This document shows, one piece after another, positions 49,096 through 64,000 of a DNA stretch of 64,000 bases. A program made the position numbers and the translations under genes. Location: the IMG/VR virus record IMGVR_UViG_3300025141_016046, positions 1-64,000 of that record. One strand, written 5' to 3'. Under the pieces are notes generated by a model that was not told where the DNA came from, did not search any database, and was given only the letters and a program-made list of their open reading frames with translations. This stretch comes from a virus. Each line of letters starts with the position of its first letter. The stretch's first letter is position 1.

Positions 49096-49836
49096 TTAAA
49101 AGAATATATCAAACTCACCCTGTTTCACGAGAGATTTATAGTGCTTTCTAATAGAAGACATGGCTATTGATAGCTGCTTGGGATTAAGATTTGATATGTC
49201 ACGTAGGTATACAAAGATTGCTCGCTTATTTAGTAGATCAATATCATCAATCTTTTCAAAAAGAGTAATGATTGCATCTATGCAAGCTAGCTCATTCTCA
49301 CCTGAGAGTTTTTGCTTTATCTCTGTCATAAGAGAGAATAGATTTTCCATAGACTCTCTTTTTATCATGTCAGTATCTTGAGGTGGAATTACCTTATAGC
49401 CTTCAATTGCACCCATATCTCTTCTACTAATTGAAAGTGGATCATCAAGACTTACCTGTCTTCTTATTTGCTTTACTCTCTGCTTGCTTTTAATTATAAG
49501 CCAATTTTTTGCAACAACGTTAAAATATGAAAAAGCCTTGGTTCCCCTTGTGTGGTCAAACTTATTTAATGTCTCATATAGAAATACGACACAGTCAGAC
49601 TTAAGATCCTCATAAGAAGAGTGTGAAGACTTAAACCCGTGAATGAAGATTAAATTTTCGACTAGCTTGTCGAATGCTGGAAATATCTTGGAGACATATA
49701 TCTTTTCTCTATCTTTTGGGCACTCCATTCCTTGAAACTTAATGATGGAATTGTGCGTCTCTTCATTGAAATAGAGAATTCTCTTTCCTTTTCCCCTCTT
49801 TCTTCTTATCTTAACGAATTTCTTTTTTCCCTTCAC
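49096..49836 (-). CDS. 55: Late-transcription sigma factor (T4 gp55-like)
   Basis: This sigma-70 relative directs host RNA polymerase to late promoters. A region-2 pattern is clear around residues 70-118: YEDLKSDCVVFLYETLNKFD, HTRGTKAFSYFNVVAKNWLI, followed by a basic KSKQRVKQIRRQVSL segment. At 246 aa it exceeds T4 gp55 (185), with a basic N-terminus. The C-terminal EFDIFF ends in hydrophobic residues like the sliding-clamp-binding tail of T4 gp55. The start is a GTG at 49836 with GAGGGT upstream. The candidate TATAAATA at 9659-9666 would be its kind of target. Confidence 0.85.
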   Translation of the reverse strand: MKGKKKFVKIRRKRGKGKRILYFNEETHNSIIKFQGMECPKDREKIYVSKIFPAFDKLVENLIFIHGFKSSHSSYEDLKSDCVVFLYETLNKFDHTRGTKAFSYFNVVAKNWLIIKSKQRVKQIRRQVSLDDPLSISRRDMGAIEGYKVIPPQDTDMIKRESMENLFSLMTEIKQKLSGENELACIDAIITLFEKIDDIDLLNKRAIFVYLRDISNLNPKQLSIAMSSIRKHYKSLVKQGEFDIFF

Positions 49837-53500: not shown

Positions 53501-53521
53501 ATGATTAGTGATGAAGAATAC
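53501..53521 (+). repeat. Direct repeat unit at the start of both sulfotransferase genes
   Basis: The first 21 bases of copy 1 (53501-53521) are identical to the first 21 bases of copy 2 (54325-54345), and similarity continues with scattered changes through most of both genes. This is the trace of a tandem duplication that has since diverged. Confidence 0.75.
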
Positions 53522-54328
53522 CAGGAAAGAATTCAAGATCTAAATAATAAAGAGTTTAAAAACCTATATTTTATTCATATTCCTAAGGCAGCTGGGTCAT
53601 ATATAAAACAATTTCCAATCAAGTGGGGGCAAAGTCACGAGCAATTTCACAGCTTTTCTCCAGTAGTCGGACCCTGGGGGACTACTGTTCCAGAGGAGCT
53701 TTTACTACCAAAGTCAGATCCCCAATTACTTCTTGAAAAAGGAGAAATAATATCTGGATACAAGAAGATAGAGCCGACCCAAATATCAAAAAAATTCTTA
53801 AAATTTGCAACTATTAGAAATCCGTTTGACTATCTAGTAAGTTGTTATTTTTCTAAAATGGTTGGAGTAGAATATGTCAATCTAGATGGGTGGCCGTTAA
53901 AGAAAGTTAGCACAGGGGACATAGAGGAATTCTTAATAAGCTTTTCAAAGAGTGAGAGAATGTACCTTCAATCTAGAAAAAATCTATTTCACCAAATATT
54001 CGACAATGAAGGAAGGTGTTGTGTAGATGTTCTAATTAGAGTAGAAAGAATAGATGAGGGACTCAGCCTTCTCAATAAAGAGGTATTTAGCAATAAGCTC
54101 AATATATCAAAAAAAGATCACAAAAATATTACGGGTGAAAGAGAGATAAATGGTAAAAGACAAGGATATGAGAAATTCTATACAAGTAAAACTAAAAAAG
54201 AAATCAAGAAAAAAATTAAAAGAGAGCTTAGCATGTTCGAATACAGTTTCAAGGGTCCTACAAATAAAAGACCCCTTGTATTCTTAGATAGAAATAAAAA
54301 ATACGATATTTTTAAGGATTTTAAATGA
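53501..54328 (+). CDS. Sulfotransferase-like protein, tandem copy 1 (275 aa)
   Basis: The start of the domain has FIHIPKAAGSYIK (about residues 24-36), the 5-prime-phosphosulfate-binding loop pattern of membrane-type sulfotransferases (Sulfotransfer_2-like), and FATIRNPFDYLVSCYF (about 102-117) is the typical 3-prime-phosphate region with Arg106. Such enzymes move sulfate from PAPS to sugars or other acceptors. There is no membrane segment, so it would be cytoplasmic. It is one of only two plus-strand genes in the window. It overlaps its paralogue by ATGA. Both copies are intact, so neither is a remnant. The acceptor is unknown. Confidence 0.75.
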   Translation: MISDEEYQERIQDLNNKEFKNLYFIHIPKAAGSYIKQFPIKWGQSHEQFHSFSPVVGPWGTTVPEELLLPKSDPQLLLEKGEIISGYKKIEPTQISKKFLKFATIRNPFDYLVSCYFSKMVGVEYVNLDGWPLKKVSTGDIEEFLISFSKSERMYLQSRKNLFHQIFDNEGRCCVDVLIRVERIDEGLSLLNKEVFSNKLNISKKDHKNITGEREINGKRQGYEKFYTSKTKKEIKKKIKRELSMFEYSFKGPTNKRPLVFLDRNKKYDIFKDFK

Positions 54329-55152
54329 TTAGTGATGAAGAATACAAGAAAAGAATTCAAGATCTAAAAGATAAGAAATTTAAAAAGCTTTATTTTATTC
54401 ATGTTCCAAAGGCAGCCGGATCTTACGTAAGAGAGTTTCCGATTCCAACTTCTGTTCACGGAAACCATGAGCAGTTTCACAACAATTCTTCATATAGCAT
54501 CGGAAGGATAGTTGATGGAGCAATGCATTCAACAAGGCAGTTACTTGAAAGAGGTGACATAGTTACTGGATATTCAATGATAACTAAGGCCAAAAATAGC
54601 AATATAAGCCAAGATTCATTAAAGTTTGCAACTGTTAGAAATCCGTTTGACTACCTAATAAGTTGCTATTTTTCAGGAATGGTTGGTGCACCCGGTCAGA
54701 CTATTAGATGCAATAATGATCATGGCAGCTATAAGACATACTGCGAGCACTGCAATGGTTTTGGATATGAAAGGTTCTTATCTGAATTCAGCAGAGGACG
54801 GATGTTATACGAACCTTGTAGAAAAAATCTATTTCATCAAGTATTTGACAATGAGGGACGCTGTGGTGTTGACCTGCTTATTAGATCAGAGTATGTTGCT
54901 GAGGGATTGCAGCAGCTAGGTAAGATAATATCTCTTAAAGATGAAGCTAAAAATATTCCAAAAGATCATGCAAATTCTTCTTCTAAAAGAATGAAAAGAG
55001 ACTATAGAGAGTTCTACTCTCCCAAGATAAAAGATATGGTAGAGAGAAAGGTTAGAAACGAGCTTGATATGTTTGGTTACACTTTTGACGGACCAGTTGA
55101 CAAAAGACCCTTTGTATTTCTAGATAGGGATAAAAGATATGATATCTTCTAA
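54325..55152 (+). CDS. Sulfotransferase-like protein, tandem copy 2 (275 aa)
   Basis: A full-length paralogue of the preceding gene: it shares the N-terminal MISDEEY block, the HVPKAAGSY loop, FATVRNPFDYLISCYF, the RKNLFHQVFDNEGRC segment and the C-terminal KRPFVFLDRDKRYDIF. It differs by a short central insertion with three cysteines and a histidine (CNNDHGSYKTYCEHC), which might bind a metal. AAGGA stands six bases ahead of its ATG. It ends tail-to-tail with a minus-strand dehydrogenase gene, the two stop codons overlapping. Distinct acceptor specificity of the two copies is likely but inferred. Confidence 0.75.
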   Translation: MISDEEYKKRIQDLKDKKFKKLYFIHVPKAAGSYVREFPIPTSVHGNHEQFHNNSSYSIGRIVDGAMHSTRQLLERGDIVTGYSMITKAKNSNISQDSLKFATVRNPFDYLISCYFSGMVGAPGQTIRCNNDHGSYKTYCEHCNGFGYERFLSEFSRGRMLYEPCRKNLFHQVFDNEGRCGVDLLIRSEYVAEGLQQLGKIISLKDEAKNIPKDHANSSSKRMKRDYREFYSPKIKDMVERKVRNELDMFGYTFDGPVDKRPFVFLDRDKRYDIF

Positions 55153-56006
55153 TCTTCGCTAACTGCTCGACCTGCCATCTTCTCCCAGTCTCGTTCATTC
55201 TCATTCCTAACCTCTAGATTCTTTTCCCACACACATCGAAGAATTCTTGGATCAACGCTATTATTTTTTGCTACCTTGATAAGTGCATTTAAATCCTTTG
55301 GAAAGCAATGCCCGCCAAATCCCATGCTTCCGTCAGGACCTGGGACTGACCAGTGTGACTTTCCAAGCCTCTCGTCATAAAGTGCATACTCAACAACCTT
55401 ATCATAATCTATGCTGAGTGGTTCGCAGATCTGATTCATCTCATTAGAAAAAATAACCTTAGTGGCAAGGAAGCAATTAGTAAAATATTTGACCATTTCC
55501 GCTGTATTGGATCCTGTCTTAACGATAGGGGTTTGCTTAAATGCCTTTCTAAAGACATTCTTCACGACCGAGGTTCCCGGTCTCGGACCTCCAACTATTA
55601 TTCTAGTCTGATTCTTAAAATCTTCTACTGCATTGGCTTCAGTTAAAAATTCAGGATTAAATACGACTTGTATGTTTGAAACTTTTTTATTTAAATATTC
55701 AGTTGTTCCCGGGGGAATTGTTGACTTAATGACTGCTACCTTGTTGTCTATTTCTTTACAAAGACTGTCAATCTCTAAAATAGTTTCTTCAACAATTCTT
55801 AGATCACAAGAACCGTCCTGTCTCATGGGTGTTGGAAGGCAGACAAATATAACGTCTACTTTTTCAACAAGAGGCGCTAACGAACTACAAGTAGATTTTT
55901 CGGATACAAACTTATCATATGTCTCAATGTTGAATGCATGCTTCATTCCCTCATTTAGAGCTCCTCCAACAAATCCCTGTCCAACTATTCCAATTGTATT
56001 TATCAT
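55149..56006 (-). CDS. Nucleotide-sugar dehydrogenase (UDP-glucose/GDP-mannose family), lacking the C-terminal domain
   Basis: An NAD-dependent enzyme that would oxidise a nucleotide sugar to the uronic acid. The Rossmann loop GIVGQGFVGGAL, the family segment FNPEFLTEANAVEDF and the catalytic cysteine in GFGGHCFPKD are present. The protein ends after about 285 residues, where typical members go on to about 400-450 with a third domain that completes substrate binding, so it is short by that domain. The reading frame is otherwise intact and the stop overlaps the convergent sulfotransferase stop. The start is ATG 56006 with AGGATAGG upstream. It may be active as a reduced form or act on another substrate. 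Confidence 0.85.
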   Translation of the reverse strand: MINTIGIVGQGFVGGALNEGMKHAFNIETYDKFVSEKSTCSSLAPLVEKVDVIFVCLPTPMRQDGSCDLRIVEETILEIDSLCKEIDNKVAVIKSTIPPGTTEYLNKKVSNIQVVFNPEFLTEANAVEDFKNQTRIIVGGPRPGTSVVKNVFRKAFKQTPIVKTGSNTAEMVKYFTNCFLATKVIFSNEMNQICEPLSIDYDKVVEYALYDERLGKSHWSVPGPDGSMGFGGHCFPKDLNALIKVAKNNSVDPRILRCVWEKNLEVRNENERDWEKMAGRAVSED

Positions 56007-56010
56007 CAAC

Positions 56011-56340
56011 CTATCCTTTGTATGCCCTTATAGCACATATCTTGCCATCGCTATTAAACTCAATGACGTCAACAACCCGCAATGCATCATCATTATTAAT
56101 GTAGATCTCTATCTCAGATACAGTTAAATTTCCAGTTTCTGCAATATTGATTGGAACAATATTGATAGTGTCAAACATCTTAAACATTTTTTTATTTTCG
56201 TGAAGAACGTACGCAACGGGTCCAACATTAAGATCCCAATCTCTAAGCGTGATATCTTTAGAAAATAACTCCTTTAAACCGTCTGCATCCTTATTTGAAA
56301 AAGTATCAAAATACTTTAGTGTTAGCTCTTTTAAGTTCAT
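56011..56340 (-). CDS. NTF2/SnoaL-like small protein (109 aa)
   Basis: Length and layout fit the NTF2-like fold: a helical start (LTLKYFDTFSNKDADGLKEL), then DITLRDWDLNVGP and strands ending in DVIEFNSDGKICAIRAYKG. In this superfamily such a single domain can be an isomerase, a cyclase or simply a ligand-binding protein. Genes of this type sit beside sugar-synthesis genes in some bacterial clusters. It is coupled to NeuB by an ATGA overlap and is followed four bases later by the dehydrogenase gene, so a step in sugar metabolism is the likely role. No catalytic residue can be named. Confidence 0.7.
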   Translation of the reverse strand: MNLKELTLKYFDTFSNKDADGLKELFSKDITLRDWDLNVGPVAYVLHENKKMFKMFDTINIVPINIAETGNLTVSEIEIYINNDDALRVVDVIEFNSDGKICAIRAYKG

Positions 56341-57389
56341 TTTATATCCTCCATTGTTAAAATTTGATCGTCAGAAATATCCTTAGACGCGAACCTTCCT
56401 AAGATCTTGTGAAGCATAGTTGGAGAAAGTCCAGTGCCTGGTCGCTTGCATGATAGATTTTTATCAGTAAGCATTTCCCCTTTTTTAATTTTAGAAGTGG
56501 ATACTATACTTCTTCTAGCATAAAGCCTTGCTCTCTCTTCGCTCTCTGTGCACTTCTTTTCTCTTGAGCCCAAGAGTGAAACTGCTAGGTTTATATTTTC
56601 AATAATCTTAGTAACTTCAGGTGGGTCAACTGATAGCCAGTGATCAGCACTTTTGTCAAGTGTCTTGTCTACTGTGTAGTGCTTTTCAAATATAGTTGCT
56701 CCAAGAGCATAGGCAAAAGCAGGGGTCCAAAGATTCATTGTGTGGTCAGATAGACCCATAATACAATCTGGAAACTCTTCTCTAAGGTGCTCTATCATTC
56801 GCAAGTTAATCTCATGATCTTCTGTTGGATACTTGAGATTACAGTGCATAACAACAATTTTATCTGTACCGCATTTTAGTACATTGACTGCAGCTCTTAT
56901 CTCATCTATTGTTCCAGCACCTGTAGAAAGCATAACTATCTTCCCCTTAGATGCTACATTTTCTAGAAGCGGATGATTTGTCAGGTCACATGATGCAATC
57001 TTATAAGCATTGATTCCAACTCTATCGAGGTAGTCTGTTGCTTCATCGTCAAATGGGGTTGACATAAACTCTATATCGTGATAGTCACATATTCGCTTAA
57101 GTTCTGCATGATCTGCCTCACCAAAAGAATCTAAATGAGAATAGGAGTCAAATTGAGATCCTTCACTTTCTATCTCACCTTCCCAATCCCAAAATCTAGG
57201 AGCATCTCTAGTACACAGATTTTTAGCTTTATATGATTGAAATTTAATTGCATGAGCACCTGCTTCAGCAGCTTCTCTAATTAATCTTTCACCGAGATCT
57301 AAAGATCCTAGATGATTTACACCTGCTTCAGCAATAAAAAATGGACTTCCTGATAAAAGACGGTTCCATAGTTTATCAACTGGTGACAT
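56337..57389 (-). CDS. neuB: Nonulosonate (sialic-acid-type) synthase, NeuB family
   Basis: This enzyme condenses phosphoenolpyruvate with an N-acetyl-hexosamine derivative to give a sialic, legionaminic or pseudaminic acid. Family marks are FFIAEAGVNHLGSLDLGERL, HAIKFQSYKA, FMSTPFDDEATDYL, KIASCDLTNHPLLE, VMLSTGAGT and LSDHT with EKHYTVDK. The C-terminal part (about 285-350) is a SAF/antifreeze-like domain (RARRSIVSTSKIKKGEML type). The length of 350 aa is normal. Which nonulosonate is made is not decidable here. An intact NeuA is encoded three genes upstream. A GAGGATC site precedes the ATG. Confidence 0.93.
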   Translation of the reverse strand: MSPVDKLWNRLLSGSPFFIAEAGVNHLGSLDLGERLIREAAEAGAHAIKFQSYKAKNLCTRDAPRFWDWEGEIESEGSQFDSYSHLDSFGEADHAELKRICDYHDIEFMSTPFDDEATDYLDRVGINAYKIASCDLTNHPLLENVASKGKIVMLSTGAGTIDEIRAAVNVLKCGTDKIVVMHCNLKYPTEDHEINLRMIEHLREEFPDCIMGLSDHTMNLWTPAFAYALGATIFEKHYTVDKTLDKSADHWLSVDPPEVTKIIENINLAVSLLGSREKKCTESEERARLYARRSIVSTSKIKKGEMLTDKNLSCKRPGTGLSPTMLHKILGRFASKDISDDQILTMEDIK

Positions 57390-58062
57390 TTTGATCCTCG
57401 TCTATTTTCTTTTTAAGAGACTGCCTTTCTTTGGTTTTTGAAGAAAGACTTCCAGACCTTTTAAAGTATCTGTAGTATGGTAACCTTAAATGGTACCCAT
57501 TAAAGTTCTTAATGTATCTTAAAATAAGATCATAGTCCTCTCTATTTCTTAGAGATTCATCGTATAGCCCTATTGACTCCAGATATCTCTTTCTAAACAT
57601 AATTCCTGCACCATGGTCAAGTAGCACATCTAGAGTGTTTAGTGACTGCTTTCTCTCAAATTTTTCATTTACAACTATGTGATCACAGTAAACAAACCCT
57701 ATATCATCATTCCACTCTAAAATCTCAGATAGTGTGAAGAGAAAGTTTTTATTAATAAAGTCGTCACCATCAACTCTCACTATGTACTTTCCTGATGATA
57801 GCGTGATTCCCTTGTTGGAGGCTGCCGACACTCCGCTATTCTTTTCTAGTCTGGCAGAATTTACTAGTCCAGAAAATTGAGAAATAACTTCCCAGGATCC
57901 ATCGATCGAACAATCATCTACGACAATTATCTCATATCTATCATCCGATAGTGTTTGATTAATGCAGCTATTAATTGCTCTCCCGATATGTTTTTCAAGA
58001 TTAAAGCAAGTTATAATGACGCTTATTAGTATATTGCTATCCTGCGTAGATTTTAATTCCAT
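57376..58062 (-). CDS. GT2-type glycosyltransferase (228 aa)
   Basis: A GT-A-fold family 2 enzyme. The N-terminus ISVIITCFNLEKHIGRAINS and IIVVDDCSIDGS form the nucleotide-sugar site, and IVRVDGDDF carries the metal-binding DXD motif. GAGIMFRKRYLESIGLYDES is the usual acceptor-side segment. At 228 aa it contains only the catalytic domain. It lies between NeuB and a methyltransferase and overlaps both, so it is probably made in stoichiometry with them. The transferred sugar is unknown. Confidence 0.88.
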   Translation of the reverse strand: MELKSTQDSNILISVIITCFNLEKHIGRAINSCINQTLSDDRYEIIVVDDCSIDGSWEVISQFSGLVNSARLEKNSGVSAASNKGITLSSGKYIVRVDGDDFINKNFLFTLSEILEWNDDIGFVYCDHIVVNEKFERKQSLNTLDVLLDHGAGIMFRKRYLESIGLYDESLRNREDYDLILRYIKNFNGYHLRLPYYRYFKRSGSLSSKTKERQSLKKKIDEDQNVTS

Positions 58063-58603
58063 CAGACTTTAACCATCTATCACAAATATTTTCAAAAACT
58101 TCTGGCGGTATGCCTGTTGATCCTAGCTTAGTATAGTTTGTGTTCTTAGTAAAGATAATATCAAACTTCTCTTCTATTTCAACTTCATACATTGAAAAAA
58201 GCTCATCTATATCTCTAACATCCCCTTCAAGTATGTAGTATATAGATTGACTACAGAATTTATCTGCAACCTCGCCTGCAGTTTTTTGATAAGCTTGATC
58301 TCCCTGACCCCTTAGCCTAAAGAGATCAATTCCTATAAACTTATTACAACCCCTCTCCTGAAAAAATGGCCACATTGTGCAAAATCCACATCCTAGATCT
58401 AGTACAGATATTGTATCTTCAGAATTCTTAGATTTTAAAAATGTGCTTAAGTCTCCTGATTTTTCAAATAATTCATTTAGCCTTCTCTCATGTGGAACAA
58501 TCAGCGCCCAGTTCCATAGGCTACCTCTTCCATGTTTATTGGATCTTTCAAGGAGAAAGCTTTCAATCTCCTGTATTAGATTTTCATCCTTGCTAGTTAT
58601 CAT
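58037..58603 (-). CDS. SAM-dependent methyltransferase (188 aa)
   Basis: A class I methyltransferase. Motif I is VLDLGCGFCTMWPFF (about residues 68-82), followed by an acidic residue in FIGIDLFRL and a motif-II-like FDIIFTKNTNYT. The N-terminal helix is charged. The target could be a sugar, as suggested by the surrounding nonulosonate and glycosyltransferase genes. It overlaps the next gene by 26 bases and the preceding NeuA gene by 11. It ends with IKIYAG. The precise acceptor is unknown. Confidence 0.8.
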   Translation of the reverse strand: MITSKDENLIQEIESFLLERSNKHGRGSLWNWALIVPHERRLNELFEKSGDLSTFLKSKNSEDTISVLDLGCGFCTMWPFFQERGCNKFIGIDLFRLRGQGDQAYQKTAGEVADKFCSQSIYYILEGDVRDIDELFSMYEVEIEEKFDIIFTKNTNYTKLGSTGIPPEVFENICDRWLKSDGIKIYAG

Positions 58604-59171
58604 TTTTATTTTCCATCTTTCTTGCTATTTTATCAATATCATCTTTTGTGTGAACGTCTATGTAGTTTGTACTTACAACTCCCTTATAAACACTTAAAGC
58701 CTTTTGATCAACACACCTGTCTAAAAGCACATGAATTGCTGAGTCTTCTATTCCATTTTGATCTACAGTAAATACTTCCCACAGATTATTTTGTATTAGC
58801 TTTTCAATACATTCATCTATCTTTATTGACTCTATTTGTGGTGAATTTGCTTGAATTCTAACCATCAGGTCAAAATAAACACCCGATTTATTTAGATGAT
58901 TTTTTGCATGTGAAAGAACATCCTGCGTCCAGACATTATCCCTTGAAAGGCTGCTAGGCCTATTAATAACGCTAATCCCTTGTGCTTCTACAATATTTTT
59001 TATTTCTTCATCTTCTGTACTGACAAATATATCTTTTTGATCAATATATTTGCTCTTCAGGCAAGCATCAATAGACCAGCAAACTAAAGGTTTGTTGAAG
59101 AGTAGATGGATATTTTTTCTAGGAAGTCTCTTGCTTCCACCTCTAGCAGGTATGACACAGACTATTTTCAA
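58593..59171 (-). CDS. neuA: CMP-nonulosonate (acylneuraminate) cytidylyltransferase, NeuA family
   Basis: This enzyme activates a sialic-acid-type sugar with CTP to give the CMP-sugar donor. The nucleotide-binding start VIPARGGSKRLPRKNI and the following KPLVCWSIDACLKS are diagnostic. The RIQANSPQI segment corresponds to the QLQPTSPL part of the family. At 192 aa it is shorter than the typical 220-230, with a reduced C-terminus. The start is a TTG at 59171 preceded by GGAGG, overlapping the upstream stop (TTGA). Together with NeuB it points to CMP-nonulosonate synthesis. Confidence 0.9.
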   Translation of the reverse strand: MKIVCVIPARGGSKRLPRKNIHLLFNKPLVCWSIDACLKSKYIDQKDIFVSTEDEEIKNIVEAQGISVINRPSSLSRDNVWTQDVLSHAKNHLNKSGVYFDLMVRIQANSPQIESIKIDECIEKLIQNNLWEVFTVDQNGIEDSAIHVLLDRCVDQKALSVYKGVVSTNYIDVHTKDDIDKIARKMENKNDN

Positions 59172-60346
59172 AGATCCTCCACAAGGATAGACTTATCTCC
59201 AGTCATTGAAGTGCATGCAATTCCAATCTTAACATCATCATCATCTGGCTTAAGGAAGCACCTCAAAAGATAGTAAGGACAAGCTGGGCAAACTTCTAAG
59301 TCTAGCTTATGATAGACTATTTCACCTGATTTTTTCTTGGTAAAGACAAATGGATTTTTCTGAAATATTTGATCTCTAAAGGTTATCATTAGACGATTAT
59401 TAGACCACCTCTCCAGCCCTATTTTTATCTCTATCGGCTTCATATTTTCACATATTTGAATTGCCTTTTTTGCATCAGACCATCTAAAGGGTATGTTAAA
59501 TTTTTTAGATGCATTTCTCAATAGGTCTATAGCATAGTACGTCTCATCTCTCATATCTCTATGATCATGACTAAAGTATGAAAGAATTACAGGGCAATTA
59601 TTCTGCCTGGCATACCCAAATGCTTCATCTACTTCCCACTGCTGTAACTCATGAAGCCTTGATTTAAGATCAACAGATCTAGCAACATATCTACGCATTC
59701 TTCCCGGAGAAAACAAGTCTCTTTTGCTTGGGTGATAATATCCCCAATGTCTTGGTGCATGAAACCAGTTAAAGTCAAAAATGTCATCTGTTTTGACTGA
59801 TGTGTACGAAGCCCTATTGGAATAGTCAATCATTAGATTTTCTTCTAGCCATTGAGAGCATTTATTATCCTCTATCGTACCTCCTGCTCTAAATGCTTCT
59901 GGAAAATCATATCTCTCAATAATTCTATGACCTAGTATTTGATAATGTACTTTGGAGCTATCCCAGTCACTAGACCATTGATCACCTATTCCGCTCTTAG
60001 GTGGTTGATGATAGTGCCAGTGAAAGCTGTCACAGTCTGTATTTAGAGACTTAATGTTGTCATATGTGTCATTATATTTTTCAATTCTATTTTTAGGATT
60101 TGTCCTAAACCCCATAAAGTCCATAATAAACCAGTTTAAAATAAAATAATTTTCGAAAGAATCCCGAGAGTCAAATCTAAACCTATCAGATGTTATATCT
60201 GACAGTGATCGCTTTATGTCGTCCCAGTTATCCATAAACTCTTTGGATCCGTCTGGTCTCCTTCTAACGTCGCCCCCAATCGGTCCTTCAGTATCCACAC
60301 AGTGAACAACTAGAACCTGAGCTTTATTTGTTGAGAAACCACCCAT
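59168..60346 (-). CDS. NodB-like polysaccharide deacetylase candidate (392 aa)
   Basis: The sequence has the scattered motifs of the NodB/CE4-type deacetylase barrel in a divergent form: VVHCVDTEGP (Asp near residue 18) for the catalytic acid region, HWHYHQPP for the HXXXH metal site, FRAGG for the third motif and YFSHDHRDMRDE near the end of the barrel. A C-terminal beta-rich part (about 300-392) includes LDLEVCPACPYYLL with a CXXC pair. The gene is coupled to NeuA, so it may remove an acetyl group from the nonulosonate precursor or product. That role is an inference from context, and the family call is moderate. Confidence 0.55.
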   Translation of the reverse strand: MGGFSTNKAQVLVVHCVDTEGPIGGDVRRRPDGSKEFMDNWDDIKRSLSDITSDRFRFDSRDSFENYFILNWFIMDFMGFRTNPKNRIEKYNDTYDNIKSLNTDCDSFHWHYHQPPKSGIGDQWSSDWDSSKVHYQILGHRIIERYDFPEAFRAGGTIEDNKCSQWLEENLMIDYSNRASYTSVKTDDIFDFNWFHAPRHWGYYHPSKRDLFSPGRMRRYVARSVDLKSRLHELQQWEVDEAFGYARQNNCPVILSYFSHDHRDMRDETYYAIDLLRNASKKFNIPFRWSDAKKAIQICENMKPIEIKIGLERWSNNRLMITFRDQIFQKNPFVFTKKKSGEIVYHKLDLEVCPACPYYLLRCFLKPDDDDVKIGIACTSMTGDKSILVEDL

Positions 60347-61184
60347 ATTTTACCATTCCTGAGTCTATGTTATTCTCTTTAAACCAGCAAAAAGTATCAT
60401 TTAAAATACTCCATCGCTTAGTCGCAAAGTCCTTAAAACTATCATCAATTTGATAGTCGCTATCTTTAACTTCAATACAGCCGCTTAGAGATTTTGAAAT
60501 ATCAAGATTAAATCTTGACAACATGTCAAAGTAAATTACTAGCTTGTGAAATCTATTTTTAAATTTATAGTGATTAGAAATGTTCACAATTCCTGCTGCT
60601 ACTCCAGATATTTCTCTTATACTTGCAGAAAAAGTATACCATGCGTTTTCAGCAGCACTATAATACTCATATACTGAATTTTTAAGATTTATATCTTTAT
60701 AGTTTTTTCTTATATTGTCAATTGAGGGCCTGGTAAAATGAGAAAGTGTCATTTTTTCAACCTTTCTTATGCTTCTATCAAGTGATTTTAGATATAGAAG
60801 GACCCTTCTATCACTTACATCCCAGCTCTTTAAGATAGACTCAATTAATAAAATTCTTTCCGGAAGCCACTCTAAAACTTCTATAATGTCAAAATAGTTT
60901 GAATTTACTTTTTCTACAGGTATTTCAACACCCTGAACAAGATTTAATTTAAATCTTTCAATATAGTTTATTTTAGAAAAAATATCTGAAGGCATTATGA
61001 TAACATTTCCGCCTTGCAAGAAATTACTAACATTATCGCTAATTGAAGGCTTTGAATCAAGTACAAGAAAATCTAGATCTGATATTCCAGGATGTGATAT
61101 TTCTCCAACTTGATATATTTGAAGAGATGGGTTATCCTTGCAGAACTCTAATATAGCACGGTCATAATCTTCTTTTGTTTGCAA
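60324..61184 (-). CDS. Nucleotidyltransferase-like protein, divergent (286 aa)
   Basis: The N-terminal part holds a polymerase-beta-type nucleotidyltransferase pattern: VGEISHPGISDLDFLVLD (about residues 26-43), with two acidic residues (Asp36, Asp38) where the metal-binding DXD lies. The usual GS of the loop is GE here, so activity may be altered. The rest is helical (SAAENAWYTFSASIREIS). The start is a TTG (61184) one base after the upstream stop, with no good ribosome-binding site. It is encoded next to a second protein of the same type, and the target cannot be inferred. Confidence 0.65.
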   Translation of the reverse strand: MQTKEDYDRAILEFCKDNPSLQIYQVGEISHPGISDLDFLVLDSKPSISDNVSNFLQGGNVIIMPSDIFSKINYIERFKLNLVQGVEIPVEKVNSNYFDIIEVLEWLPERILLIESILKSWDVSDRRVLLYLKSLDRSIRKVEKMTLSHFTRPSIDNIRKNYKDINLKNSVYEYYSAAENAWYTFSASIREISGVAAGIVNISNHYKFKNRFHKLVIYFDMLSRFNLDISKSLSGCIEVKDSDYQIDDSFKDFATKRWSILNDTFCWFKENNIDSGMVKYGWFLNK

Positions 61185-61185
61185 T

Positions 61186-62199
61186 TTAGATACCCAGTAT
61201 TGACTTCATTTCTTTAATAAGATTATACCCTCTAAGAAAATAATTTTCACCAATAATTTTCATTGCACTATCAGGAATCTCATTTGAAAGAGAGAGATTT
61301 GCTTTCCAGCCTGCTCTTAGCATAGAAGAGACATCAACTATCTCAAAATTTTCTTTACTAATGACTTTCCTACATGCCTCTATTGATTCTGGCTTTGTTA
61401 GATATTCACCCCTAATATTCATAAAATAAGAAGGAAGGAGACAGATAACAGACATAAAGTATTTCATCTGATACATGGAATTTTTATAATTTCTAAAATT
61501 ATCCATCATATAGACACCCTCATAGGCATGATGTTGAAGTGTTCCGCTCCCAAATGCACGCTCTAGGGTCTTGTAAATTGAATTAAATCTATCTATTTGC
61601 TCTTGACTTGAATCTCTCTTGTGTCCAAATAGATCGAACTCTCCAAGAAGCGATACGCTTTGCTCAAAAAGGCTTGTTGGAAGATAGAGGTCGGGATACA
61701 TTAAAAGATCTTTTTCAGCTATAAAGTGAATTCCGTGATGTTGATGATTATCAAGATTCTTAATCATGTTCTCGATTGCCTGACAGATAGACCTAAGCCT
61801 TATCATCTCAGAAGCATCATCTAGCGTCCCATCTCTTATGATTGCAATACTATCAAAGTCACTCCATCCTGGAACATAGTCCAATGTTGCAAGACTTCCA
61901 TGAAGGATAAAACCCTTAAGATAATAATGAGCATTTTGTCTAATAAAGTCAGATATCTCTAAAACAGGCTTAAGAAATGGATCTTTATATTTTTCATAGT
62001 CTATTTTGTCAATGGATGATCTAAAACTATGTGTAGAAAAATCGCTAGGATTTAGACATTTATATGATGATGATACTGACCTTGCTATCATCTCTTTGAC
62101 AAAAAATGGCTCACTATCAATACATCCAGACTTTGTGTGAAGAAACCAGTTTAAAAGACTATTTGAACTCTTTTGAAGATTTATTTGATTTCTGGACAT
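61186..62199 (-). CDS. Polymerase-beta-type nucleotidyltransferase (337 aa)
   Basis: Residues about 97-122 match the nucleotidyltransferase motif well: LHGSLATLDYVPGWSDFDSI, with Gly101-Ser102 and Asp114 and Asp116 as the catalytic dyad. The N-terminal part has a charged helical segment, and the C-terminal half is helical with histidines (QHHAYEGVYMMDNFR). Proteins with this fold transfer a nucleotide to a small molecule, protein or RNA. The adjacent genes suggest a glycan or amino-sugar target, but antibiotic-type, RNA or protein targets cannot be excluded. The start is the ATG at 62199 within the upstream gene end. Confidence 0.75.
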   Translation of the reverse strand: MSRNQINLQKSSNSLLNWFLHTKSGCIDSEPFFVKEMIARSVSSSYKCLNPSDFSTHSFRSSIDKIDYEKYKDPFLKPVLEISDFIRQNAHYYLKGFILHGSLATLDYVPGWSDFDSIAIIRDGTLDDASEMIRLRSICQAIENMIKNLDNHQHHGIHFIAEKDLLMYPDLYLPTSLFEQSVSLLGEFDLFGHKRDSSQEQIDRFNSIYKTLERAFGSGTLQHHAYEGVYMMDNFRNYKNSMYQMKYFMSVICLLPSYFMNIRGEYLTKPESIEACRKVISKENFEIVDVSSMLRAGWKANLSLSNEIPDSAMKIIGENYFLRGYNLIKEMKSILGI

Positions 62200-63302
62200 T
62201 CTTTTTCTATAAAGTCAACAATTCTAGAAGATGCTCCTTCGTAATTTTTAGAAAAGTATTTCTCCTGAAATGATTGCCAGTCTCTATCATCTCTATTGAT
62301 AAGGCCTAGTACGCGATTTAACTCAGACTGCATTCTTAGTCTAAATTCAGATTCGTCATCAGTACTCTTCTTAAGAATTGTATCACAGTGAACTCCATCA
62401 AATATAGGTCCAGAGTAATATTGCTTATTGATTGGATCCATTGCCCTGAAGAGCTGCTCTCTATTTTTGTGAAGTGCTGCATGCATGTCAGAAAACAGAC
62501 AGACATACGGAACCTGAAGAAATGTTAGCTCATTAATTGCTGACGAGCAAAAGTTGAATACACACTTTGACGATGTATAGAGTCTTAAGTGAGAAACAAT
62601 ATTATCATCATAAACATATCCATCAAAATTTGTGAACTTGTGGTATGGATAGGAATATTTCTGTCTTGATTTTAGTATTAATGCATACTTGTTTCTATCG
62701 CAAAAACTTCTTAGTTCAGCTAGAAATATCTTTACATAATCCAAAAATCCACTATAGTTTGACACAAAGCTGTTGTGAGGTGCCATAAATGTTACAATAT
62801 CGAGGTCTTCTTTTATGTTTAGACTCTTAAAGTCATTTATAATTTCAAACCACGGGCTTCCAAGTGACTGAATTTTTGTATGACCTGTGAGCGTCTGAAC
62901 AGTATTTTTAGACCACTCGCTATTTGCAAATAGTGTTGAAGATCCTGAATAGTCATTTCTACTGTTGTATATCTCATTCCAGCAATATTCAACTGCATAC
63001 ACATTAGACTGTCCAGATATTTCGTATATCTCACTCCATATTTTATTGAATAGGTTAATACCTATCAGAAATCTATAGTCATTGTGATTGTTAATTACTG
63101 CCTTTCTTACTTCCTCTCTGTTCCTAAATGTCATCCAGTTTATGTCATCTAGTCTTAATCCAATCTTTGGAATATTGGACAAAGACTCTCTCTTGCATGT
63201 TGAAAAAACATCACACTGATACCCTCTAGATCTGCACTCTCTAATTAGCCCAAGAACAGACTGAACAGTTTGAGACTTATCAATAAAGAATGCAACCTTC
63301 AT
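62181..63302 (-). CDS. GT-B-like glycosyltransferase candidate (373 aa)
   Basis: The layout is that of a two-domain GT-B enzyme: a Rossmann-like start (KVAFFIDKSQTVQSVLGLIR), an interdomain segment (FANSEWSKNTVQTLTG), a second Rossmann part (LDIVTFMAPHNSFVSN) and a C-terminal part with KCVFNFCSSAINELTFLQVP, which resembles the CDP-glycerol/capsule-transferase type where a serine replaces the usual EX7E. It lies upstream of the nucleotidyltransferase pair. It could be the transferase that uses the activated nonulosonate, but I see no direct support. The ATG overlaps the preceding stop (TAATG at 63302). Confidence 0.6.
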   Translation of the reverse strand: MKVAFFIDKSQTVQSVLGLIRECRSRGYQCDVFSTCKRESLSNIPKIGLRLDDINWMTFRNREEVRKAVINNHNDYRFLIGINLFNKIWSEIYEISGQSNVYAVEYCWNEIYNSRNDYSGSSTLFANSEWSKNTVQTLTGHTKIQSLGSPWFEIINDFKSLNIKEDLDIVTFMAPHNSFVSNYSGFLDYVKIFLAELRSFCDRNKYALILKSRQKYSYPYHKFTNFDGYVYDDNIVSHLRLYTSSKCVFNFCSSAINELTFLQVPYVCLFSDMHAALHKNREQLFRAMDPINKQYYSGPIFDGVHCDTILKKSTDDESEFRLRMQSELNRVLGLINRDDRDWQSFQEKYFSKNYEGASSRIVDFIEKECPEIK

Positions 63303-64000
63303 TAGCTATTTAACCACTCGTCAATGTGTGCTTCATCCTTTGCTTCTGGGCTTGAAAAATCCTTTGAAAGCAATACCTGTCCATAGTCAATCTCATTATC
63401 TGGAATTCTTCTATCATCAAAAAATATCCTTCTATCCATTATAATAAGCTCTTTTGATTCATCATTAATTTCATCTATTAGCTTTGCACACTGAATTCCT
63501 GGCTCGCTATTCTTTGTTGGAAGATGATAGTCGTCAAACAAGAGAAATGCATTGTATTTATCCTTACATAGATCCCAATCGCGCTTAACACCGTTGTATG
63601 TGTGATCTCCATCAATATAAATCATATCAAAATTTCCCTCAACACTTGGCAATACACTACTAGAAGCCCCTGATCTAAACTCAATCATTGAAAACCACTG
63701 GCTTGGAAATATTGACTTTAATCTTGTTATTAATGCTTGATCAAAGTTTGGATCAACTGTTACGATTCGCCCTCGGACTCCTGAGTCACTAAATGCCTTT
63801 GCTGCACAAAATGTAGAATAGCCTCTGCCAAATCCTATCTCAAGAAATGATGTTAGCTTAAACTTTCTTATTAGTGTGTATATTAAAAGACCTCTTTCGT
63901 AGTTTGGCCTGAAGAAGCACCCGACAGACCTGTAGAGATCACTATTTTGACCTCTTGTCTTTTTTGCGGTATATTCTCCAATTGCATCAAAATCACCCAG
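63302..64000 (-). CDS. SAM-dependent methyltransferase, 5-prime end beyond the window (partial)
   Basis: The frame stays open to the right edge of the window, so at least 232 residues are encoded and the start is missing. Motif I EIGFGRGYSTF, then IVTVDPNFDQ and IYIDGDHTYNGVKRDW with LLFDDYHLP are the marks of a class I methyltransferase of the Methyltransf_24/CmcI-like type, often acting on sugars or O-methyl targets. A shorter reading from an internal ATG at 63688 would miss motif I and is not the true start. It forms the outer end of the glycan island seen here. Confidence 0.8.
   Translation of the reverse strand: MGDFDAIGEYTAKKTRGQNSDLYRSVGCFFRPNYERGLLIYTLIRKFKLTSFLEIGFGRGYSTFCAAKAFSDSGVRGRIVTVDPNFDQALITRLKSIFPSQWFSMIEFRSGASSSVLPSVEGNFDMIYIDGDHTYNGVKRDWDLCKDKYNAFLLFDDYHLPTKNSEPGIQCAKLIDEINDESKELIIMDRRIFFDDRRIPDNEIDYGQVLLSKDFSSPEAKDEAHIDEWLNS

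Follow-up and report, generated by a model that had tools for sequence, protein, structure and literature searches.

A conserved nonulosonate-type gene module in a T4-like phage, a probable variant of the marine phage glycan island

Introduction

The glycan islands of pelagimyophages and cyanophages have been interpreted as a means of changing the host O-antigen against co-infection (PMC7029224, PMC7824862), and among bacteria, Leptospira species carry clusters for nonulosonates (PMC3438082). A literature search, with most subscription journals outside its scope, returned no direct report of phage-encoded nonulosonate synthesis. The viral record described here (IMGVR_UViG_3300025141_016046; 75,845 bases) was covered to its end; its bases 1-64000 are termed the window, the whole stretch of 64,000 nucleotides that was analysed. 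Judged by sequence comparison, the sugar-enzyme module that spans the window's end is real, conserved, phage-borne and of nonulosonate type, and represents a variant of the glycan island known from marine T4-like phages. The first-pass annotation had called this region a nonulosonate synthesis island; the genomic context agrees with that name, since bacterial homologs of its GT2 and deacetylase genes lie in NeuB/NeuA loci, whereas the upstream steps of such a synthesis did not turn up.

Results and Discussion

Setting and gene content

The structural module of the window is of the T4-like myovirus type (prohead protease, portal and baseplate wedge in PHROGs), and the large terminase has its best matches in T4-like phages at 33-45% identity, including Flavobacterium phages (about 44%) and Microcystis phage Mel-JY01 (45%). 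Next to this structural module, positions 56011-64000 fall inside a minus-strand run of 26 sugar-enzyme genes (55149-75680), with intergenic gaps of -29 to +3 nt in the gap table; the island reaches 75.7 kb, past the end of the window. The T4 late promoter TATAAATA showed no excess, with 3 occurrences in the window against 5.6 expected, and 0 in L002. The single, tightly coupled run proposed in the first-pass annotation is borne out across 55149-75680 by overlaps or spacings of 1-3 nt, and the ORFs it named are all present in their places on the minus strand (Table 1). Its labels are secured to different degrees: Pfam backs the GT2, the NTF2-like protein and the methyltransferase at 63302 but gives the one at 58037 weak backing, and the ORFs called two nucleotidyltransferases and a GT-B-like enzyme exist but have no library match for these names. 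Overall, the names NeuB and GT2 are well supported, those of NeuA and the deacetylase fairly so, and those of NT1, NT2 and the GT-B candidate weakly.

Table 1. Predicted features of the island within the window.
Coordinates	Strand	Feature	Evidence
55149..56009	-	UGD-like nucleotide-sugar dehydrogenase, short form	PF00984/PF03721, TIGR03026
56011..56340	-	SnoaL/NTF2-like small protein	PF12680 (SnoaL_2) 3e-8; 61% homolog at same place in L012
56337..57389	-	NeuB-type nonulosonate synthase, TIM barrel + SAF, 350 aa	PF03102 4e-73 + SAF; catalytic residues invariant
57376..58062	-	GT2a, GT-A glycosyltransferase, subfamily tied to NeuB/NeuA loci	PF00535 4e-27; PDB 6p61 7e-53
58037..58603	-	Putative SAM methyltransferase (weak)	PF13489 0.005, below cut-off; homologs in place in L009, L010
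58593..59171	-	NeuA-like cytidylyltransferase, short form, 192 aa, C-terminal D-V-H	PF02348 1.8e-27 (N-terminal half); PDB 6ifd 7e-18
59168..60346	-	Predicted NodB/CE4-like deacetylase (residues 1-300) + C-terminal Ig-like domain (303-392)	Conserved motifs, predicted fold
60324..61184	-	NT1, imperfect pol-beta NTase-like motif G27..D36-L-D38	Conserved in 10 viruses
61186..62199	-	NT2, pol-beta NTase-like motif G101-S102..D114-F-D116	Conserved in 8 viruses
62181..63302	-	Conserved protein at GT-B position, putative glycosyltransferase	Conserved in viral relatives
63302..64000	-	SAM methyltransferase, runs on to 64075	PF13578 3e-16

Neither Pfam nor PHROGs yielded a match for NT1, NT2, the GT-B candidate or a 338-aa protein further along the run. 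NT2 fits the motif GS-x(9-13)-D-x-D and has a weak CdnD match (0.019); in NT1 the serine is absent and the spacing is short. The 338-aa protein (L002:13030-14046; 69029-70045 on the window's scale) has a 41% identical counterpart in Marine virus AG-345-E15 and 31% identical ones in Listeria phage records. Beyond it (L002:14050-19681; 70049-75680 on the window's scale) lie NTP transferases fused to APH-like or HAD domains, together with choline-kinase-like, cupin and GDPD-like genes, a module that is largely conserved in relatives and resembles phosphocholine-type decoration. The UGD-like protein has the NAD and central domains without the C-terminal UDP-binding domain, and its gene stands beside NeuB in most viral relatives. 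Exonuclease and UGD are directly adjacent in L003 and L012 and separated by another gene in other relatives; since its content differs in this way, the gap between them is an insertion hot spot. In the present record a tandem pair of Sulfotransfer_2 genes occupies it on the plus strand (53501-55152). Two GT4 genes lie on the other side of the island, at 50.1-52.6 kb.

Searches of IMG/VR found 11 close NeuB loci, and 32 loci with an alignment as query. About a dozen records share the core NT2-NT1-deacetylase-NeuA-GT2-NeuB, and in most close loci the usual order is GTB-NT2-NT1-deacetylase-NeuA-(methyltransferase)-GT2a-NeuB-UGD-exonuclease-GT4-GT4, followed by a homolog of the gene at 49096. Since independent viral records repeat these genes in the same order, with identities of 33-88%, the arrangement is not due to chance. 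The remaining island genes (GDPD, HAD, NTP transferases, choline-kinase-like protein, GT2b and methyltransferases) are also common to the relatives, where they lie beside baseplate genes.

GT2a and the candidate deacetylase

Searched at 1e-28 against 398 proteobacterial genomes, a GT2a profile hit 15 places in 14 of them. NeuB or a cytidylyltransferase (CMP-sugar synthetase) occurred within 1.5 kb of 12 of these 15 homologs, which represent about six independent lineages because seven rows cluster tightly in the tree, but near none of the 30 best generic GT2 loci; some query proteins were derived from GT2a loci themselves, and queries limited to phage, SAR11 and SpsF proteins already gave most of the neighbors. 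The generic loci were collected with PF00535, which replaced GT2b as control query; GT2b had found no bacterial match. Views wider than 1.5 kb add further GT2a loci with NeuB or a cytidylyltransferase, and a plasmid search with GT2a gave no match. GT2a stands directly beside NeuB in viruses and bacteria, and the GT2 is fused to CTP_transf_3 in L084, L087 and L088; a domain search found no CTP_transf_3 on the GT2 of L089. In L086:6374-8212 (minus strand) and similar loci, a bacterial NeuA fused to a D-2-hydroxyacid dehydrogenase adjoins GT2a. The association of this GT2 subfamily with NeuB/NeuA, and the fusions that occur naturally, suggest an enzyme for a reaction with few known transferases. 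As a caveat, the DxD and ED motifs are kept in GT2a and speak for a donor of the NDP-sugar and not the CMP-sugar type, so that nonulosonate transferase is only one reading of its function. Cj1143 of Campylobacter jejuni is reportedly a GalNAc transferase fused to a CMP-Neu5Ac synthase; by this precedent, the GT-NeuA fusions may act on sialylated acceptors and not transfer sialic acid itself.

The candidate deacetylase matched no Pfam family above cut-off; it carries the invariant motifs D-T-E-G, H-x-H, R-A-G, D-x-S and S-H in the expected order. Matches of the full-length model were driven by the Ig-like C-terminal domain only, and the catalytic domain was therefore refolded alone, giving a model of modest confidence (pLDDT 63, pTM 0.70). 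Compared with 998 chains, the top 15 matches of this model were nearly all CE4-type (Z 6.7-8.1 over 154-211 aligned residues, rmsd 3.9-5.0) and included polysaccharide, chitin and peptidoglycan deacetylases, the allantoinase PuuE and heparan sulfate N-deacetylase; Foldseek returned nothing below E 0.02. Together, the structural matches and the ordered motifs make a NodB-like enzyme likely, in agreement with the initial label. In a SAR11 genome, the deacetylase homolog opens a legionaminic-type cluster of NeuB, NeuC, CBS-NTP transferase and NeuA. In the viral relatives L005 and L007, a DUF4910/DUF2172 protein with a weak M28 match occupies the deacetylase position, which would fit the replacement of one amide hydrolase by another.

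Proposed pathway and its target

On balance, the region probably represents the core of a phage pathway that makes a nonulosonate-type sugar and transfers it, more likely than not onto virion proteins. By family chemistry, NeuB would condense phosphoenolpyruvate with a host-derived six-carbon sugar; the short, atypical NeuA-like enzyme would activate the product with CTP; the deacetylase, as its fold and motifs suggest, would take off an N-acyl group; the methyltransferases would decorate the sugar; and the NeuB-linked GT2, the GT-B candidate and the GT4 enzymes would build it into a glycan that could be attached to virion proteins in the cytoplasm. This reading draws on the catalytic residues of NeuB, the gene order in about a dozen records, the neighborhood of GT2a, the SAR11 cluster, the CE4-like fold and the gap-free operon, and further on the DUF4910/M28-like hydrolase that takes the deacetylase's place in two relatives. 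Against it stand the short NeuA with its D-V-H motif, a NeuB that scores under the subfamily cut-offs and has changed positions, the lack of Epimerase_2, and the DxD/ED motifs of GT2a.

The same chemistry could serve another target: the nonulosonate glycan may be exported by host machinery and alter the host lipopolysaccharide or capsule, thus excluding competing phages. This is a serious contender, if the less probable one; it is the published reading of equivalent hypervariable glycan islands in pelagimyophages and cyanophages (PMC7029224, PMC7824862), and soluble glycosyltransferases can feed host O-antigen assembly. In a crude hydropathy scan, however, none of 30 island proteins had a 19-residue window above 1.6, and the glycan genes of L122 and L124 likewise gave none, so that a protein resembling a hydrophobic flippase, polymerase or polyprenyl-transferase is missing from both sets; moreover, the island is contiguous with baseplate genes. 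The lack of strongly hydrophobic segments in the scanned proteins, and the island's place directly beside the tail/baseplate module, slightly favor glycosylation of virion proteins in the cytoplasm over modification of the host surface.

NeuB and its precursor

NeuB is scarce among known phages: at 1e-5, INPHARED (50,697 records) gives 3 matches, one of which carries the label Moritella viscosa. In a quick tree, the closely related viral NeuB sequences form a single clade (SH-aLRT 100), and the nearest bacterial sequences are those of L078 and L083. The domains of the window NeuB are complete (PF03102 1-241 of 241, SAF 1-62 of 63 in Pfam). With residues numbered as in SiaC and a PDB match as alignment bridge, E25, K53, Q55, T110, K129, S132, S154, Y186, S213, H215, H236, D247 and R314 are identical in the window NeuB and in 10 of 10 relatives; the window protein thereby keeps the entire SiaC catalytic set (E25, K53, Q55, K129, H215, H236, D247, R314), with its R316 aligning to SiaC R314. 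The window protein and its relatives differ from SiaC at four positions, N74 (E/D), E134 (D), N184 (L) and F288 (Y/N), which we take to be acceptor sugar positions; the kept catalytic residues and these four changes suggest an active synthase for another acceptor. An HMM comparison that the first-pass annotation had proposed for placing NeuB among the sialic, legionaminic and pseudaminic subfamilies gave 325.5 bits against TIGR03569 (N-acetylneuraminate synthase equivalog; curated cut-off 399.65) and 258.8 bits against TIGR03586 (pseudaminic acid synthase, PseI equivalog; curated cut-off 340.25); because both NCBIfam scores are under the cut-offs, the protein receives no subfamily name.

The same annotation had placed the NeuC or Pse/Leg steps either outside the window or in the host. 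The remaining 11.8 kb beyond position 64000 contain no NeuC-type upstream sugar-step genes, and neither epimerase nor aminotransferase genes were found there. Epimerase_2 (PF02350, the hydrolysing UDP-GlcNAc-type 2-epimerase) was absent from all 15 viral records, several of them fragments, and present in 11 of 14 control genomes searched likewise. Three of the 15 viral records have a DegT aminotransferase, and genes for a GDP-mannose 4,6-dehydratase and for a carbamoyltransferase are present among the relatives. Because no NeuC-type epimerase appears beyond the window or in the 15 records, the host probably supplies the NeuB precursor, unless this is an unusual one.

These results would also suit an account in which NeuB and the NeuA-like enzyme make a different activated 2-keto-3-deoxy acid, of other chain length or non-acylated (for example Kdn), and the label sialic-like would then be inaccurate in its particulars; the subthreshold equivalog scores, the pocket changes, the lack of NeuC and a short NeuA with only partial similarity to the PseF and KdsB models would all fit. 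We consider this account unlikely, as NeuB retains R316 (SiaC R314) and homologs of both GT2a and the deacetylase are located in nonulosonate loci.

The NeuA-like cytidylyltransferase

The CTP_transf_3 match of NeuA covers only the N-terminal 118 of 217 profile positions in Pfam; PDB CMP-Neu5Ac synthetases match at 7e-18, and among NCBIfam models there is partial similarity only, to PseF and KdsB. Relative to full-length enzymes, the protein is missing about 40 residues in its C-terminal half, and its last motif reads D-V-H (D-I-H in some viruses), in contrast to D-x-D in nearly all full-length viral and bacterial NeuA sequences aligned. The D-x-H motif and the short size are common to all short viral forms aligned; as shape and motif hold throughout, the alignment identifies the short NeuA as a conserved subfamily and not a broken gene. 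Two earlier statements are qualified accordingly by the annotation's own standard of intactness: NeuB is full length with its catalytic residues kept, whereas NeuA keeps the CTP-binding motif but is short, with D-V-H in place of D-x-D. Likewise, both members of the supposedly diagnostic NeuB-NeuA pair are present by family, yet the pair is weaker evidence than had been stated, because this NeuA is a shortened, divergent cytidylyltransferase.

The missing segment and the aspartate-to-histidine change could instead mean that NeuA has decayed or been repurposed, for example as a subunit or scaffold, with a host enzyme performing the CMP activation. The gene is indeed replaced in relatives, by a NeuB-cytidylyltransferase fusion in L005, a 27% homolog in L007 and an SpsF-type enzyme in L038; the fusion (L005:2846-4507) is the second NeuB of that viral record and has a bacterial parallel in L088:6386-8095. 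Decay or repurposing nevertheless seems improbable for a protein whose N-terminal IPARGGSKRL motif is invariant and which is 52-70% conserved across viruses. Finally, assembly of the record as a chimera of phage and bacterial DNA, which its bacterial-looking gene content and nothing further would favor, can practically be dismissed, as the independent 125 kb record G001 and 235 kb record G006 carry the same run, from the baseplate genes through NeuB to the island's far end.

Significance and comparison with known systems

If the conserved cassette does serve an acidic nine-carbon sugar, phages can carry committed steps of sialic-like synthesis, with consequences for virion adsorption and masking. 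A bolder and rather doubtful extension of the virion reading would give a clade of marine T4-like phages its own dedicated set of final steps in a new nonulosonate pathway (with a new acceptor sugar, a minimal NeuA and a deacetylation step) and a GT2 devoted to nonulosonate transfer or extension, with the sugar coating the phages' own virions; if so, the GT2 subfamily, common to phages and bacteria, would form a new class of glycosyltransferases that handle nonulosonates.

The island resembles the hypervariable host recognition cluster (HRC) of T4-like marine phages (pelagimyophages, cyanomyophages): the phage is likewise a T4-like marine myovirus, and among its structural genes lies a large, variable set of glycan genes that includes UDP-glucose dehydrogenase and glycosyltransferases. 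It differs in that a conserved NeuB-centered cassette forms its core, whereas the main text on the HRC mentions no sialic or neuraminic genes (PMC7029224). With the SAR11 legionaminic/neuraminic locus L018 it shares NeuB, a cytidylyltransferase and the deacetylase homolog; in contrast to that locus, the phage is without NeuC, CBS-NTP transferase and NeuD, its NeuA is short, and the two NeuB proteins are 34% identical. The proteobacterial locus L078 (DegT-GT2a-NeuB-SpsF-...-DUF4910) has adjacent dehydrogenase and aminotransferase genes that the phage lacks, yet it matches the phage arrangement in having GT2a directly upstream of a 41% identical NeuB and, close by, a cytidylyltransferase and a gene of the amide-hydrolase type. 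GT2a itself belongs, over its full length (E 7e-53), to the same GT2 subfamily as PDB 6p61, which is presumably a Leptospira glycosyltransferase.
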